Below are positions 1,622 through 25,510 of a DNA stretch of 36,442 bases, in pieces (within the stretch, counting starts at the first letter, position 1; each line of letters starts with the position of its first letter). Under the pieces are notes generated by a model, which was not told where the DNA came from, did not search any database, and saw nothing but the letters and a program-made list of their open reading frames with translations. This stretch comes from Bacillota bacterium. GTDB taxonomy: Bacteria > Bacillota > Dethiobacteria > DTU022 > UBA8154. The DNA lies in the NCBI GenBank assembly GCA_012520035.1, contig JAAYOY010000140.1, positions 1 through 36,442 of the forward strand. The letters are read 5' to 3'. Position numbers and translations under genes: made by a program.

Positions 1622-1720
1622 TCCCAGGAGATTGGCACGCTAACGCTTTAGCCCTGTGGATGGGGAAGTGGTAGAAGGCAGATTGCAGACAGTAGACGGC
1701 GGAAGGCGGTGTGGTAGGAA

Positions 1721-1797
1721 TGCGACAGAAGAATCGTCCACTGTCGCATTGGCGGCAGATATGCGACAGAAGAACCGTCCCCTGTCGCACTGTCGCA
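1721..1797. repeat. TGCGACAG...CTGTCGCA repeat element, two direct 28-nt units plus a half unit
   Basis: Unit A 1721-1748 TGCGACAGAAGAATCGTCCACTGTCGCA; unit B 1762-1789 TGCGACAGAAGAACCGTCCCCTGTCGCA; half unit CTGTCGCA 1790-1797. Confidence 0.85.
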
Positions 1798-10103: not shown

Positions 10104-10349
10104 ACATTCCCCCTCAAGTTCTTTTGCTGTTCTCAGCCGGGCATATAACACCATCATATGCCTTCAATCATTATTCTGTCTTCCGGAGGGAAAATTATAC
10201 AAAAAAAAAGCTAAATTAAGCACGCTAAATACAGCCCCAATGCAAGACGGTAAAAGATTGGAAGATCATTATACACTATATATTTTCGCTAATTGATATA
10301 TCACAGTTATTAATGATTTGGATAAAACGGTGTCCACAACTTATCAAAA

Positions 10350-10383
10350 AAGAAAGCTTTTTTGATATCAAAAAAGCTTTCTT
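10350..10383 (-). terminator. Perfect 34-bp palindrome; probable terminator after pth
   Basis: AAGAAAGCTTTTTTGATATCAAAAAAGCTTTCTT equals its own reverse complement; on minus the T run continues (CTTTTTTGATAA). Confidence 0.6.
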
Positions 10384-10474
10384 GCCTTATACCGAGACTT
10401 TATCACCACTTTAGCATTTTAAAGAATAAAATGAAGGCTTTTTGCAGCAGGGAAGCACAGGGCCTTTTTCACCA

Positions 10475-17557: not shown

Positions 17558-19627
17558 TTACATCTTAAACCGTTCAGTCATTGTTTGCAGCTCTTCCGCC
17601 AGGGCATTCAGTTCCGCAACATAGCTGCCAACCTTCTCCAGCACGGCGGTTTGTTCTTCTGTTGACGCCGCTATCTCCTGGGCGGCAGCCGACTGATCCT
17701 GCGCCTTTCCGGCAATATCGTCAATATACTCGCTCAACTCGGTCACCGATTGCAGAATATCATCAAGCCCCTGCTCCACGGACCGCGCTTTTTGATCGCC
17801 TCTGGTTACGATTTCACTCACGCTTTCCATTTTTTCCACCGCTACACTGATACGCTCCTGAATACCCGAAACCAGCTTGGCAATTTCACCTGCCTCGGTT
17901 TCGCTTTGCTCGGCCAGTTTGCGTACTTCGTCCGCAACCACGGCAAAACCTCTTCCGTGTTCACCGGCACGGGCGGCCTCAATGGCGGCATTGAGGGCCA
18001 GCAAATTGGTCTGGCCTGTTATCCCCATTATTGCCTTTACAATCATGTTAATCTTATCGGAAAACTTATCCAGCTCTACGATGGAATTATGTACGTCTTT
18101 TACCGCCAGATCGATCTCCTCCATACCCTGGACGGCTTCCCTTACCGATGAAAAGCCTTCACGTGCCACATTTTCACAATCCTTACCCTTTATCGCCCCT
18201 TGCTCAGATGCATGGGCAATTTCCTGGGCCTTATAAGCGATGCTCTCGCTGGTCGTCTGGGCAATCTCCTCCATGGCCATGTTGCTCTGCTGCACCCCGG
18301 AGGAGAGTTCCCCCGCTGACTCCGCAATTTTTTGCGCGGTAGTACGCAGCGTTTCTACCATTTCCCTTAGTCCGGCGAGCATGGCATTAAAACTGGAACC
18401 GATTTTCCCGATTTCGTCCCCCCGGGTAATATTGACCTCCTGGTTCAGGTTTCCCCCTTCGACCTCCCGCATAATATCAATCATCTGCAAAAGAGGTTTT
18501 GTAAGCTTCTGGCTAAACCCAAAGGCAACCCCCAGGGCAATTATTAAACTCAATCCGCCGATTAACAGAAAGCGATTGCGGTTGGCGTCTTTAATGGCAG
18601 TAAAGGGGGCTTCCGGGACCCCGATATACAGCATGCCAATAACCTCATCCTGATTGTCTCTCAAAGGACTGTAGGCAGTGATATAGCTCTCACCATGCTC
18701 ATAAGCGGTCCCTGAAAAAGGCAGGCCTTCACCCAGGACCTGGGCAGCGATATCCTCCGGTGCTTTTTCACCTACCAACCGTTTTACCGGTGTATCGATA
18801 TTTCCCGTATTTTCATTCGCATTACCTTCATCGGATACTGCTTCCGTATCCTCAGCTTCCGTTATCCCTGTATTTTCAACAATTTCTTCCCCGAAAGCGC
18901 TGGTGGCGATAGCCAGATTATCCAAATAAAAGGCAGCATCTGCATTAAAGGTACTTGAGATATAATTAACTAGAGCGCTGTTATTGTTCAATAGCTTGCC
19001 GCCAACCAGGGTACCCACAATGGCGTCTTTACTGTCACGTACTGGAACGGCGGCGACCAAAGCCAGTGCCCTGACTTCCCCCTCAACCGTTTCTTCCACA
19101 GAGCTTGCTTCCGCACTCCCTGCCAGGGTTGCTTTATCCAGCAAATCTTCACTTTTTAAGAATTCCTCATCGAGAACAACTAATCCGGATACCTCTTCGA
19201 TGGCAACTTTTTTAACTAGCGGCAAGGAAAAAGGTGTTCCTACATTAGTCTCCGCGGTATTAGCTCTGATCATTACCTGTCCTTTATTATTTACATAAGT
19301 TAAAAAATCCAGATCAAATTTTAAACTATCAAGAAATAAAGTAGCTAGAGCAAGGTCATATCGCTCATTGCTGATATAGTTAACAAATTCGTACTTATGT
19401 GCCGCTACATTCACCTGGGTCTCCCGTTCCTGCAGCTGGCGCATTAATATATCTTCGGCGGCTTGTATATCCTTTTCGATTGTTATGCGAGCCTGGCCGC
19501 CAATATTTTCATCAATTGAAGACAACGCCAGGTATCCCGCTACTAACAAGGGCAAGAGGGTAAACAGGATCAAGATAACGAGAAGTTTAGTTCTGAGGGT
19601 TACGGCTATTCGTTTTTGCTTTAACAT
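17558..19627 (-). CDS. Methyl-accepting chemotaxis protein with extracytoplasmic Cache-like sensor
   Basis: N-terminal TM, Cache-like sensor, HAMP, and '[47 protein letters not shown]'. Confidence 0.95.
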
Positions 19628-19680
19628 AAATATTACTCCTTTCTATATGGCATAGCTGGAGGGGGAAATCCCTGTACATT

Positions 19681-20472
19681 TTACCCGGTTACCTTCTGGT
19701 AAATTGTGTTAAAACGTTTTTTCAGCATGTAATTTTCAGGATTGCTGATGTATTCCGCAGAGCCAATAACCAGATAACCTCCCGCTTTTAAAGCACCGCT
19801 AAAACGCTGCAGAAAAAAATCCTGAGTTTCTGCTTTAAAATAAATAAAAACATTGCGGCAAAGAATCATGTGACACCCGTATAGAGGGGTATCGCACAGC
19901 AAATTATGGCGCTTAAAGGTTACAGATTTTCGTATTTTTGGCTTTACGCAGTAATACTCACCCTCCTTAACAAAATATTGCTGTAATAGTTCCGGCGATA
20001 TTTTAACAAGATACCTGGGATGAAATTTCCCTCTTTTCGCTTCCTGAAGCGCTTTTTCATCTATATCCGTCCCTACGATCTGAACCCGGTCCAGGGCTTT
20101 TAAAGTATCAAAAAGAATCGAAACGGTATAGGGTTCTGCCCCGAATGAACAACCGGCGCTCCAAATTGCCAGTTTTTGATCAAAGTTTTTCAAAAGCTCA
20201 GGAAAAACCTCTTCTTTCAGCTTTGCATAAACAATTTGATCGCGAAAAAACTCCGACGTATTTATCGTTATGTAATTTAAAAAGAATTGCATTGCTGGCG
20301 GGTTTTTTGCCAGGTAATTATAAAAATGCTGGAAACCGGGCTGATTTTCTCGCTCCATCAGCTGCCTGATACGCCTCTCCATCTGCTTGTCCTTGTAGCG
20401 ATCAAGTTCAAGTCCGGTTTTGAGATAAAAAGCCGTTTTAAATTTTGCATAATCCCAGGCATGCCTTTCCAT
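19681..20472 (-). CDS. cheR: Chemotaxis protein methyltransferase CheR
   Basis: 'TSEFFRDQ', 'IWSAGCSFGAEPYTVSILF', 'ILCRNVFIYF'; start MERHAWDYAKF preferred over the ORF start at 20511. Confidence 0.93.
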   Translation of the reverse strand: MERHAWDYAKFKTAFYLKTGLELDRYKDKQMERRIRQLMERENQPGFQHFYNYLAKNPPAMQFFLNYITINTSEFFRDQIVYAKLKEEVFPELLKNFDQKLAIWSAGCSFGAEPYTVSILFDTLKALDRVQIVGTDIDEKALQEAKRGKFHPRYLVKISPELLQQYFVKEGEYYCVKPKIRKSVTFKRHNLLCDTPLYGCHMILCRNVFIYFKAETQDFFLQRFSGALKAGGYLVIGSAEYISNPENYMLKKRFNTIYQKVTG

Positions 20473-20485
20473 AAAACCGCTCTCC

Positions 20486-21562
20486 TTATTCCTGGCGTAA
20501 AAACAGGTCAATGGTTTTGGCTATCTGATTAAGAGGGACTATTTTATCCGCCAGTCCTCTTCGTATTACTGCCTCCGGCATACCCGGGATAACAGCAGTG
20601 GCGGGGTCCTGAACGATTGTCCTGCCGCCTTTTTCCTTGATCATGGCCATGCCGTCGCTGCCGTCCCTGCCCATTCCTGTAAGGATAACTCCAACCACCG
20701 ACGATCCATATGCCTCAACCAGGGACTCCATCATGACATCCACTGAAGGCCGGACGTGATTCACAGGTGCTGCTTCACTGAGGGAAACAATCCCTTTTTT
20801 TTCCGCAAGGAGGTGATAACCCCCGGGAGCCAGGTAAACCCGGCTTTCCACTATGTCTTCTCCATGAACAGCTTCTTTAACTTTTATCGGGCAGACCTTA
20901 TCCAGCCTTTCTGCCAGGGAACGTGTAAAACCCGGAGGCATATGCTGCGTAATGAAAGCTGCGGCCGGTAAATCTGCCGGCAGGCCCTTCAACACCATTT
21001 CCAGGGCACGGGGACCGCCGGTGGAAGCCCCTATAGCCACAACAAAGCGGACTGTATGCAAAGGGGAAAGTGAAGGTAAAGGTGTAACATCTTTCCGTTG
21101 TAGTGAAGGGCTGCTTTTTTCAACAGGTACTGTGAAAGGCCGCTCGTGATCCAGGTGCGCCCGTGCCGCATGTGTGATCTTCAGGGGCAACTCGCGTTTG
21201 AACTCCCGGGTAAAATCATCCGTAAACCGGGAGGGCTTTGCTACGAAGTCCACCGCCCCAAGCGCAAGAGCTTCAACCGTTATTTCGCTTCCCTTCCGGG
21301 TATAACTGCTGACCATAATGACAGGCAGGGGGTTTTCCTGCATAATTCTTTTCAGTGTCTCTACCCCATTTAAACGGGGCATCTCCACATCCAGGGTGAC
21401 CACATCCGGTTTATACCTTTTAATTTTGAGCAGCGCGTCCTCTCCATCGCGGGCAGTAGCTACAAGCTCCAGCCCCCTGCTGCCGGCAATTATATCTCCA
21501 AGAAAAAGGCGCATATAAGCGGAATCATCAACAATCAATACCTTCACTTTTCTCTGTTCCAT
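20486..21562 (-). CDS. cheB: Chemotaxis response regulator protein-glutamate methylesterase CheB
   Basis: REC domain 'VLIVDDSAYMRLFL' plus 'AIGASTGGPRALE', 'ITQHMPPGFTRSLAERL', 'GMGRDGSDGMAMI'; RBS GGGGAGG upstream of MEQRKV. Confidence 0.97.
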   Translation of the reverse strand: MEQRKVKVLIVDDSAYMRLFLGDIIAGSRGLELVATARDGEDALLKIKRYKPDVVTLDVEMPRLNGVETLKRIMQENPLPVIMVSSYTRKGSEITVEALALGAVDFVAKPSRFTDDFTREFKRELPLKITHAARAHLDHERPFTVPVEKSSPSLQRKDVTPLPSLSPLHTVRFVVAIGASTGGPRALEMVLKGLPADLPAAAFITQHMPPGFTRSLAERLDKVCPIKVKEAVHGEDIVESRVYLAPGGYHLLAEKKGIVSLSEAAPVNHVRPSVDVMMESLVEAYGSSVVGVILTGMGRDGSDGMAMIKEKGGRTIVQDPATAVIPGMPEAVIRRGLADKIVPLNQIAKTIDLFLRQE

Positions 21563-21652
21563 ATTTGACCTCCCCGGCGTACAAAACAATCCTCCGTCGT
21601 AAACAAAATTAAGTAATAGTAAGCCCTCTTATTTTTGTAATAAAATAAAAGC

Positions 21653-21739
21653 GTCCTGTTCAGGACAGCAACTTAAATTCGGCTGCTTAATATCAGCGCC
21701 ATTCCTTATGGCGCTGAAGTTCTGGTTCTAGTGAACCAG
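21653..21739. other. Cluster of four consecutive stem-loops in the cheD-cheB gap
   Basis: Inverted repeats: GTCCTG-TT-CAGGAC (21653-21666), AGCAAC/GCTGCT (21667-21687), TCAGCGCCAT-TCCTT-ATGGCGCTGA (21693-21717), CTGGTTC-TAGT-GAACCAG (21722-21739). Confidence 0.7.
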
Positions 21740-21791
21740 GAGCGCTGCCTGCCCATGAATTACGGCGAACCTTAAAAACGCTTAGTTTAAA

Positions 21792-21858
21792 TGCGACAGA
21801 GAACCGTCCCCTATCGCACTGTCGCAGTTTTTGCGACAGGGGACGGTTCTCTGTCGCA
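21792..21858. repeat. TGCGACAG...CTGTCGCA repeat element, two inverted 27-nt units
   Basis: 21792-21818 TGCGACAGAGAACCGTCCCCTATCGCA and 21832-21858 TGCGACAGGGGACGGTTCTCTGTCGCA are reverse complements with one mismatch and a 13-nt spacer. Confidence 0.9.
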
Positions 21859-21866
21859 CTGCAACG

Positions 21867-22358
21867 CTAAAGAATCTTTTCAGTTCCACCAACAGTATTA
21901 ATTACTACCCTTCCGGAGTTAACATAAAGACGCATGGTGCGTCCCTGGAAACCGCCGACATCTTCTCCCCTGATGGGAATTTTATATTTATTTAAATAAT
22001 ATTTCACTGCCTGGACATTTTTCATTCCGATGCTGGAACCCAGCTTCTGGAAGGCAAAGAGCTGTCCCCCTCCGGCAATTTTTGCTTTGAGCGAAAACCT
22101 GTTTGCGCCGGCCTTGCCCATTTTTTCCATTAAGAGGGGAATAGCGGTATCGGCAAACTTTGCGGGGTTAAAGGAATTTAAGCTGCTTTTGAACTGGGTG
22201 CTATCCGGCAATAATATATGCGCCAGGCCTCCAATTTTGCTTTCCGGATCATAGAGGGCGATGCCCACGCAAGAACCCAGCCCCACCGTAACCAAAACCC
22301 CCTCGCCCTTAAGAATTGCCAAATCAGAAATTTTTACCTTGATCATTAACTTTTCCAT
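21867..22358 (-). CDS. cheD: Chemoreceptor glutamine deamidase CheD
   Basis: 'VTVGLGSCVGIALYDPESKIGGLAHILLPDS', 'KIAGGGQLFAF...IGMKNVQAVKYYL'. Confidence 0.95.
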   Translation of the reverse strand: MEKLMIKVKISDLAILKGEGVLVTVGLGSCVGIALYDPESKIGGLAHILLPDSTQFKSSLNSFNPAKFADTAIPLLMEKMGKAGANRFSLKAKIAGGGQLFAFQKLGSSIGMKNVQAVKYYLNKYKIPIRGEDVGGFQGRTMRLYVNSGRVVINTVGGTEKIL

Positions 22359-22361
22359 CTT

Positions 22362-22967
22362 TCACCTTATACCCAGCAGAGTAAAAATTGTGTTTAAAGC
22401 TCTGTTATCGGGGAGTATCAATATATGACCTTCAATGCTCTTTTGCATAGATTTTAACGTTGTTTTTATGAGTACAACCTCATCTTCCAGCACGCATTTC
22501 TCAGCAATAACCGTGGAGATAATCGCACCGGACATATCCACGGCTATCTCCGGAGGACTTGGGATTAACAATAAACCGGTCATAAAAGAAAGGGCGTTCA
22601 AGTATGAATTAGTCATAATATTGCCTACTTCAATTAATACTGAGATACCCATTTGATCATTTAACCCTGCCAGCCCCGGTACAAGCGTCAATATCAGATT
22701 AGTACTGCTATCCAGGGAGAGGACAAAAAGAATAGTCAAATCGGCACCTCCGTGCGATTCGATATAAACACCTGCCACAGGAAGCTCCGCCCCGCCCAGC
22801 AGCTCCGGAACATCCTGCAGGTAAACAAGCTCGGCAGAGGGAACATCCATGCTGATTTTTTCTTCATGCAGCATTTGCGAAAGCGAGGTAACGGCGTTAC
22901 CGAATCCTATGTTGGCCAGTTCTTTTAATATGTCGAGTTTCCTTTCATCGATCTGCTGTTTTACCAT
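22362..22967 (-). CDS. cheC: CheY-P phosphatase CheC
   Basis: Two ExxN motifs: 'ILKELANIGFGNAVTSLSQML' and 'LIEVGNIMTNSYLNAL'. Confidence 0.92.
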   Translation of the reverse strand: MVKQQIDERKLDILKELANIGFGNAVTSLSQMLHEEKISMDVPSAELVYLQDVPELLGGAELPVAGVYIESHGGADLTILFVLSLDSSTNLILTLVPGLAGLNDQMGISVLIEVGNIMTNSYLNALSFMTGLLLIPSPPEIAVDMSGAIISTVIAEKCVLEDEVVLIKTTLKSMQKSIEGHILILPDNRALNTIFTLLGIR

Positions 22968-23010
22968 TATTGTTCACTCCACCCTTTCCGTAGCAAGCAA
23001 GCAGGAAAAA

Positions 23011-23394
23011 TTAACCCCCAACTTTTTGTAAGGCTTCCACAATGCGGTCCGGTTGAAAAGGTTTCACAATAAAATCTTTCGCCCCGGAATTTAACGCTTC
23101 GATAACCAGAGCTTTTTGTCCCATGGCGCTCACCACGATGATCTTGGCATCGGGGTCTTTTTGCATTATTCTTTTGATTGCTTCAATACCGTCCATCTTC
23201 GGCATTGTTATATCCATGGTCACCAGATCAGGGTTTACACTCGAGTACATCTCCACAGCCTGAAGCCCGTCTTCCGCTTCTCCAACCACCTCATAACCGT
23301 TCTTTTCCAGAACGTTGCGTAAAGTCATACGCATAAAAGCCGTATCATCGGTTATTAAAATTCGTTTTCCCATACCTAAACCTCCCCTATTCAA
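23011..23394 (-). CDS. cheY: Chemotaxis response regulator CheY
   Basis: 'RILITDDTAFMRMTLRNVLEKNGYEVVGEAEDG', 'DLVTMDITMPKMDG', 'KDFIVKPF'. Confidence 0.95.
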   Translation of the reverse strand: MNRGGLGMGKRILITDDTAFMRMTLRNVLEKNGYEVVGEAEDGLQAVEMYSSVNPDLVTMDITMPKMDGIEAIKRIMQKDPDAKIIVVSAMGQKALVIEALNSGAKDFIVKPFQPDRIVEALQKVGG

Positions 23395-25510
23395 GCAACC
23401 CGGCTACATCCAGGATAAGAGTAACCCTGCCGTCTCCCAGCACCGTAGCACCTGCAATACCTTTAATATCGTTCACAAATTTGCTCAAAGATTTAATCAC
23501 TACCTCCTGCTGGCCCAGAAGTTTATCGACAATAAAGCCTGCTTTCTTATCTCCGGTCTGAACTACCACCACCGGGTATATATCTTGTTCCTCAAACCGC
23601 CCCATGCCCAGTATTTCTTTTAAACAGCAAAGCGGCAGAACTTCTTCCCTGAGGGTAATAACCTTATCTCCCTGGATCGTCTTTATATCGCGCGGTTCTA
23701 TGTAAAGATTTTCCCGAACAGCCTCAATGGGTATGGCGTATACTTCCTTCGCGGATTCAACCATCAGCGTTCTGATAATGGCAAGCGTCAGCGGAAGCCT
23801 GAGCATAAACCTGCAACCCCTCCCCGGTTTGCTCTTTACTTCCACCGTGCCGTTAATGGCTTCAATGGAGGTCTTAACCACATCCATCCCCACCCCCCGG
23901 CCGGAAATATCGGTTACTTCCCGGGATGTGCTGAAACCATTCTTAAAAATAAGGCGCAGGGACTCTTCAAACCCTATCTTATCCATCTCTTCCGCGGTAA
24001 TAATATTCTTCTCCAGCGCTTTAGCCTTGATAGCCTCCGGATCGATACCTCGCCCGTCGTCCTCCACGCTGACCACCACATGACTTCCTTCATGGCGGGC
24101 TTCCAAATAGATTTTGCCCACAGGATCCTTGCCATTACTAATTCTTTCTTCCCTGTCTTCCAGCCCGTGATCGACTGCATTGCGCAGCAGGTGAACCAGG
24201 GGATCGCCGATCTGGTTGACAATCGTGCGATCAAGTTCCGTCTCCTCCCCGGATATAATAAGTTCAATTTCTTTCTGTTTTTCAACGCTCAAATCGCGAA
24301 CCATTCGGGGAAAACGATCAAAAACCTGCTTGATCGGCACCATTCTGAGGGCCATCACGACGCTCTGCAGCTCCGCTGTAATTCTCTCCAGCTGTTCAAG
24401 AGAACCTTCCAGCAGTTCATCGCCTGTTTTCTTTCCCAGCTCAATTACACGTGTACGGTTAATAATCAACTCCCCCACCAGGTTAACCAGGTTATCCAGC
24501 TTGGCTGTTTCCACGCGGATAGTTTTTTCGGTAGAACGGGAAGACAAAGACCTGGCCTTTTTTATTACCTGAGAAATATCTTCCGGAGAATCATCGCTTT
24601 CCTTTAGGGCAAGAGCTATACCGCCGTCCTGCAAAGATAATGCCGTTTGTTCATTTACAGCCTCTGGATGCATAACAGACGTTTTCCGGCCGGGAATACC
24701 GTCCCGGGTGATTTCCCAGGCCTTCGGCTCGCCCTGCTCCACTATTTCAATTATTCCCACATTTTCGACCTCGGCGATCTTCTCCAGCGATTCCTTGAGA
24801 GCTGCAACATCGGGCTTTCCAGTAATTAATAGGAATATTTCCCGATCAAATTTCTCCTCTTCCAGTTCATGTATGGAAGGCAGGGTTTTGATAACCTCCC
24901 CCTGCTTCTCTATGTTTTTTAATACCAAAAAGGCGCGAACGGATTTTAAAAGCGAACCCCGGCGCAGGCAGATATAAATCTGATAAATTTTTTCTCCCCT
25001 GGAAACCGCATCTTTAAGCATTTCTTTTTCAAACTCATTTACCAGACCTTCCCAGGCAATTTGCTTCTGTCCGGCGGCATCCTTTTCTGCCTCCTGCTCA
25101 TCCTCCGCTTCCAACGGCGGCAAATTTTTATGCAGTTCCTTCCGCAGGCCCCAGGCCTGAAGCTTTTTCTCCAGCGCTTTAACTTCTGCGCTAAATTTAT
25201 CCTGGTTTTCCAGATTATCCACCAGGAGCTGCACCAAATCTACAGCATCAAAAAGAAGGTCGATAAACTCTTTTTCAATGGTCGCCTCCCCTGAGCGCAG
25301 TTGATCCAGCAGGCTTTCCATCTCATGGGTTAGCCCTGAAATAAGATCATAGCCCATCGTCCCCGCCATACCTTTCAGGCTGTGAGCAGCGCGAAACATC
25401 TCCGTCAACTGTTCTCCCTGGGGTTCTTTTTCCATCTCCAGGAGGCAGCGGTTAAGGTTTTGCAAATACTCATTAGCCTCTGCCAGGAACAGGTCCCTGT
25501 ATTCTTCCAT
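23387..25510 (-). CDS. cheA: Chemotaxis histidine kinase CheA
   Basis: Hpt 'AHSLKGMAGTMGYDLIS', P2-like region, 'LLRNAVDHGLEDREER', 'GRGVGMDVVKTSIEAI', CheW-like C-domain. Confidence 0.97.
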   Translation of the reverse strand: MEEYRDLFLAEANEYLQNLNRCLLEMEKEPQGEQLTEMFRAAHSLKGMAGTMGYDLISGLTHEMESLLDQLRSGEATIEKEFIDLLFDAVDLVQLLVDNLENQDKFSAEVKALEKKLQAWGLRKELHKNLPPLEAEDEQEAEKDAAGQKQIAWEGLVNEFEKEMLKDAVSRGEKIYQIYICLRRGSLLKSVRAFLVLKNIEKQGEVIKTLPSIHELEEEKFDREIFLLITGKPDVAALKESLEKIAEVENVGIIEIVEQGEPKAWEITRDGIPGRKTSVMHPEAVNEQTALSLQDGGIALALKESDDSPEDISQVIKKARSLSSRSTEKTIRVETAKLDNLVNLVGELIINRTRVIELGKKTGDELLEGSLEQLERITAELQSVVMALRMVPIKQVFDRFPRMVRDLSVEKQKEIELIISGEETELDRTIVNQIGDPLVHLLRNAVDHGLEDREERISNGKDPVGKIYLEARHEGSHVVVSVEDDGRGIDPEAIKAKALEKNIITAEEMDKIGFEESLRLIFKNGFSTSREVTDISGRGVGMDVVKTSIEAINGTVEVKSKPGRGCRFMLRLPLTLAIIRTLMVESAKEVYAIPIEAVRENLYIEPRDIKTIQGDKVITLREEVLPLCCLKEILGMGRFEEQDIYPVVVVQTGDKKAGFIVDKLLGQQEVVIKSLSKFVNDIKGIAGATVLGDGRVTLILDVAGLLE

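Follow-up and report, generated by a model that had tools for sequence, protein, structure and literature searches.

Finding and anatomy of the hairpin gap

The gap between cheD and cheB in this Bacillota genome raises the question of what four contiguous stem-loops, packed into 87 nt (21653-21739), might be doing inside a chemotaxis operon, as they could represent a regulatory RNA, a transcription stop or mRNA-processing site, a repeat element, or simply an insertion with no function in expression. The stretch of DNA analysed here (36,442 nt, hereafter the window) carries this operon on its minus strand in the order FliN-like, CheC/FliN fusion, CheW, CheA, CheY, CheC, CheD, gap, CheB, CheR and MCP, such that co-directional che genes lie on both sides of the hairpins. 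The bordering genes, and a palindrome that shares the gap with the hairpins, are as follows:

21867-22358, minus strand: cheD (PF03975), upstream of the gap
21785-21865, unstranded: inverted REP pair (REPIN-like palindrome), core GAGAACCGTCCCC, 34-nt arms
20486-21565, minus strand: cheB (PF00072 + PF01339), downstream of the gap, with its ATG at 21563-21565 and GGGGAGG before the ATG

Between the cheD stop (21867) and the cheB ATG the gap measures ~304 nt (277 nt if counted to the first upstream TTG), and ~80 nt of it is the REP palindrome. A preliminary description of this DNA had called that length anomalous, and comparison bears this out, as none of the 40 named relatives with a measured cheD-to-cheB gap reaches it (overlap to 160 nt); cheD loci were confirmed with an alignment of CheD proteins, a single CheD protein as query having confirmed none. 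Within the gap we found no sigma-70-like promoter, no sigma-28-like promoter at 10 or more of 12 matches, and, as small ORFs, only short frames that overlap either the REP pair or the start of cheB.

All four hairpins lie where the preliminary description had placed them, including its perfect 10-bp stem, and on the minus strand they lead into a U-rich tract that itself can pair:

21722-21739, minus strand: hairpin 1, 7 bp (CTGGTTC/GAACCAG), 4-nt loop
21693-21717, minus strand: hairpin 2, perfect 10-bp stem (TCAGCGCCAT/ATGGCGCTGA), 5-nt loop
21667-21687, minus strand: hairpin 3, 6 bp (AGCAGC/GTTGCT, including one G-U), 9-nt loop, with an A.C mismatch on the plus strand
21653-21666, minus strand: hairpin 4, terminator-like, GTCCT-GAAC-AGGAC, 5 bp, 4-nt loop
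21639-21650, minus strand: U-rich tract TTTTATTTTATT, 3' of hairpin 4
about 21626-21651, minus strand: fifth, AU-rich hairpin formed by the U tract, which it would sequester

The minus-strand tail that had been claimed after the last hairpin, GCTTTTATTTTATT, does come after hairpin 4. In hairpin 3 and the fifth hairpin the sole imperfect position is a G-U on the minus strand and an A.C on the plus strand, an asymmetry that points slightly towards the minus-strand RNA as the form that matters.

Folding strength against the genomic background

Folding of the minus-strand RNA at 21625-21745, a stretch that includes the fifth hairpin, gave a minimum free energy of -46.4 kcal/mol versus -24.0 +/- 3.4 for 200 dinucleotide shuffles (z -6.6, with 0/200 shuffles as stable), while the plus strand folded less stably (z -5.2) and the 93-nt core, folded as single-stranded DNA, reached z -6.0. 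We also folded 586 intergenic windows, each no longer than 110 nt, taken from 280 kb of the source genome, a background that is not a random draw because its stretches were picked partly for REP copies. Only three of them contain four hairpins with stems of 5 bp or more: the cheD-cheB locus accounts for two (z -5.5 and -4.5), and the other has z +0.35. No other four-hairpin cluster in the 280 kb sampled is significantly stable, and as a structure the array is more than chance. Folding strength alone is not exceptional, as several other sampled loci, mostly single long hairpins and REPs, show similar or more extreme z values, and owing to such elements strongly folding intergenic windows are common in this genome.

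Search for relatives of the array

Searching the whole window against Rfam 15 returned 0 matches at gathering score, so the array is not an Rfam family member, and the earlier statement that it is not a named RNA family holds for this release. Relaxed thresholds yielded nothing credible: microRNA-family matches reflected only the long REP palindrome, and the best subthreshold match in the array region was RF03050 (RAGATH-25), at 23.7 bits versus a gathering score of 49. Here the hairpin-4 region is weakly similar on the plus strand (GUUCAGG loop, A-rich linker), but comparable matches arise in unrelated sequence, 12/14 control genomes also give matches at E <= 1, and two places in relatives with similar scores resemble unrelated sequence; we accordingly rejected this identity.

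Sequence searches with the array itself were equally barren. BLASTN returned one copy, itself, in its own genome (of which roughly 10% is missing), no homologue in 100 relatives (two chance-level matches of 20-22 nt) or in 399 genomes of the phylum, and no related sequence in plasmids and phages. A covariance model likewise detected no second copy in the own genome and no homologue across 98 genomes of the class, though distant homologues could escape it because it was built on the array's one sequence. Its best match outside the window (G017, 24.9 bits) resembles one hairpin only and, lying inside a long ORF on the other strand, is taken as chance. Among viral contigs, two hairpin patterns had no match at all, and four contigs matched the 18-base pattern of hairpin 1, a short pattern match. 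As judged from these searches, the array appears to be a single, unconserved instance found in one genome only. They supplied no homologue to align for covariation in the stems, and the lack of further copies is among the outcomes that the preliminary description had named as counting against its idea.

A REP pair beside the array, and RAYT-type genes in the same genome

The palindrome at 21785-21865, which went unmentioned in the preliminary description, consists of TGCGACAG-AGAACCGTCCCC-TATCGCA plus a near reverse complement of the same, and it attracted nearly all of the 69 matches obtained when most of the gap was searched against its own genome. Its exact core GAGAACCGTCCCC occurs 63 times in the source genome and 20 times in the same-genus genome and is present in 22/30 genomes searched (a reversed control pattern: 0 occurrences), and the REP family with this core and outer stem TGCGACA is widespread in the taxonomic family. 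Two intact-looking Y1 transposase genes of RAYT type are encoded in the source genome, one scoring 86.3 bits against the NCBIfam NF047646 cut-off of 80 and the other just below it at 79.2, and both have REPs on both sides in opposite orientation:

L075 1465-2250 (G000:C229): RAYT-type gene, flanking REP variant with outer stem TGCGACA
L074 1048-1878 (G000:C87): RAYT-type gene, flanking REP variant with outer stem GCAAG
window 1719-1797: further REP of the core-GAGAACCGTCCCC family

The variants at these two genes have the core GGGACGGTTC in common, which points to two REP subfamilies that each have a dedicated transposase. REPINs have been defined elsewhere (PMC3116915), and 21785-21865 displays the corresponding features, being an inverted doublet that forms a long hairpin, multi-copy, with a RAYT flanked by the same REP; by that definition it is, from its sequence, a REPIN-like pair accompanied by a RAYT gene in the source genome. 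Set against RAYT-associated REPs and REPINs generally (PMC3116915, PMC2817692), this neighbour is alike, whereas the four hairpins differ in being single copy and having no sequence in common with the REP. A text search for the core sequence in a limited literature collection found no paper on this bacterial REP family.

These observations divide the earlier suggestion of a non-autonomous repeat, which fits the adjacent palindrome and fails for the four hairpins. That the hairpins might form their own repeat family (MITE or REP-like) could be entertained given that they adjoin a bona fide REP pair in a genome with two RAYT-type genes, but the paralogous copies for which the preliminary description had looked to BLASTN are absent from the own genome, the covariance model extends the single-copy result to relatives, and phages, plasmids and (for two hairpin patterns) viral contigs add none, such that this idea is largely refuted and we regard it as barely credible. 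The RAYT-linked REP family in this Bacillota lineage is the better-supported by-product of the analysis, and it accounts for part of the intergenic turnover.

A weak terminator or mRNA-processing site as the favoured reading

An intrinsic-terminator scan listed hairpin 4 (21667-21652, tail CTTTTATTTT) as the only minus-strand site within 19500-24000, although the scan as a whole, with 9 sites found versus 5.1 +/- 2.6 expected from shuffles, was not convincingly above background. Hairpin 4 matches the pattern of an intrinsic terminator (GC-containing hairpin, U-rich tract within 0-2 nt), but the predicted terminator is weak, with a short 5-bp stem, a 2-nt spacer (GC) before the U tract, and the competing fifth hairpin that would mask that tract. 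An extended, bulged form of its stem (-7.9 kcal/mol) abuts UUUUAUUUUAUU and shares bases with hairpin 3, making the two mutually exclusive. The earlier proposal of a structured RNA ending in a terminator is therefore compatible with the anatomy, in that the scan lists hairpin 4 and the G-U pairs fall on the minus strand, even if the terminator itself is predicted to be weak.

Precedents exist for such an arrangement. Clusters of hairpins separated by less than 15 nt have been put forward as intrinsic termination units, and almost all of these lie no more than 80 nt after a stop codon (PMC8355165); in E. coli intercistronic hairpins without U tracts protect operon segments (PMC5927463). The array resembles the former in its short hairpins less than 15 nt apart past a stop codon, with U residues after the last, but sits within what appears to be an operon instead of between two operons, at 128-214 nt from the cheD stop, and termination here is putative. 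Like the protecting hairpins, for example those of malE-malF (PMC5927463), it offers stable hairpins between two genes of one operon, but it has a U tract and is unconserved, and protection here is likewise putative. The distance from the stop arises because the REP pair intervenes; without those ~81 nt the array would start ~46 nt after the cheD stop, and this position, together with the published termination units, leads us to favour a weak internal terminator or 3'-end protection.

Our leading reading, held tentatively and at slightly less than an even chance, is thus a lineage-specific hairpin cluster with a weak U-tract terminator that causes partial termination or 3'-end protection between cheD and cheB-cheR-MCP; the strong minus-strand fold, the intact stems and the setting between co-directional che genes argue for it alongside the features above. 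If the cluster does anything, an ordinary partial transcription stop or mRNA-processing site is most likely. As RNA polymerase leaves cheD, the REP-pair hairpin would fold first, then hairpins 1-3, after which hairpin 4 and the U tract would provide weak intrinsic termination of the polycistronic che mRNA (minus strand); transcription would stop in part, or 3' ends left by cleavage would be protected at the array, and the cheB-cheR-MCP message would be made or kept at a lower level than the upstream che message. We infer transcription through the gap, partial termination and an effect on cheB expression from the arrangement of these elements. Should the array terminate or process the message, it would offer a simple case in which an operon gains differential expression of adaptation genes via a lineage-specific intergenic structure. 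Intergenic hairpin clusters and REPINs are both known kinds of element, the array being a new single instance, and neither it nor the REP family alters the understanding of a known system.

Two more elaborate readings draw on the same structure. One holds that it is a structured regulatory RNA, either a riboswitch-like or protein-binding cheB leader or an sRNA, in which hairpins 3 and 4 alternate, and their mutual exclusivity and a fold that is strong for its composition would suit this, but the alternative pairing is ~4 kcal/mol less stable (-7.9 vs -12.1), and the Rfam and covariance-model results given above yielded no relative; we consider it very unlikely, and a riboswitch or sRNA class for the array is not supported. 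The other, in which a lineage-specific multi-hairpin attenuator has newly evolved in a gap also entered by a REP pair and sets how much of the adaptation module (CheB/CheR/MCP) is made relative to the upstream one (CheA/W/Y/C/D), seems to us similarly improbable.

Comparison with a same-genus genome

Turning to conservation, the cheD-cheB gap of the same-genus relative is 124 nt, lacks the array and is not clearly alignable to the source gap, with the blocks flanking the gap at ~78-79% nucleotide identity between the two species, and the array is likewise absent from the orthologous gaps of every other relative examined. Since it is unconserved even within the genus, there is no evidence of selection on the array, which also counts against the weak-terminator reading. 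Because it was found neither in this gap nor in the searched genomes, it is unlikely to be a conserved class of riboswitch, leader or sRNA, and the leader of cheB-cheR-MCP that the preliminary description had suggested finds no support as a conserved element. Across the 32-kb syntenic block that holds the locus, several further gaps also vary in length by 100-400 nt, some longer in one species and some in the other, and in some cases due to REP-like palindromes, so intergenic turnover is ordinary in this lineage.

These patterns are consistent with neutral intergenic debris: a lineage-specific insertion that plays no part in expression, derived perhaps from a palindrome-rich segment of a mobile element, in a gap that a REP pair has entered as well. 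The unalignable gap between well-aligned flanks, the other variable gaps and the 63 exact REP cores in the source genome all favour it, but the stems are essentially perfect and decayed debris would not long retain them, and a mobile element would tend to have a second copy, of which none was detected in the own genome or relatives. We judge such an insertion a serious possibility, if short of an even chance and, because nothing shows selection, almost as likely as the terminator reading.

Other intergenic differences between the two genomes were also seen. In the same-genus genome (G001), the palindrome GTGGGACAAGGGACCTGTCCCCTTGTCCCAC, possibly a third REP-like family, occupies L101 16633-16738, between two alignable blocks that nearly abut in the window genome. 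Upstream of the MCP gene block in G001, 483 nt at L101 14692-15174 do not align and include two REP copies in tandem, GGGACGGTTCTTTTTCTTGC; the corresponding stretch measures 75 nt in the window genome. At about 10230-10400 of the window, within a 394-nt stretch unalignable to the same-genus genome, lies a long perfect AT-rich hairpin, GAAAGCTTTTTTGATATCAAAAAAGCTTTC, which is a probable terminator.
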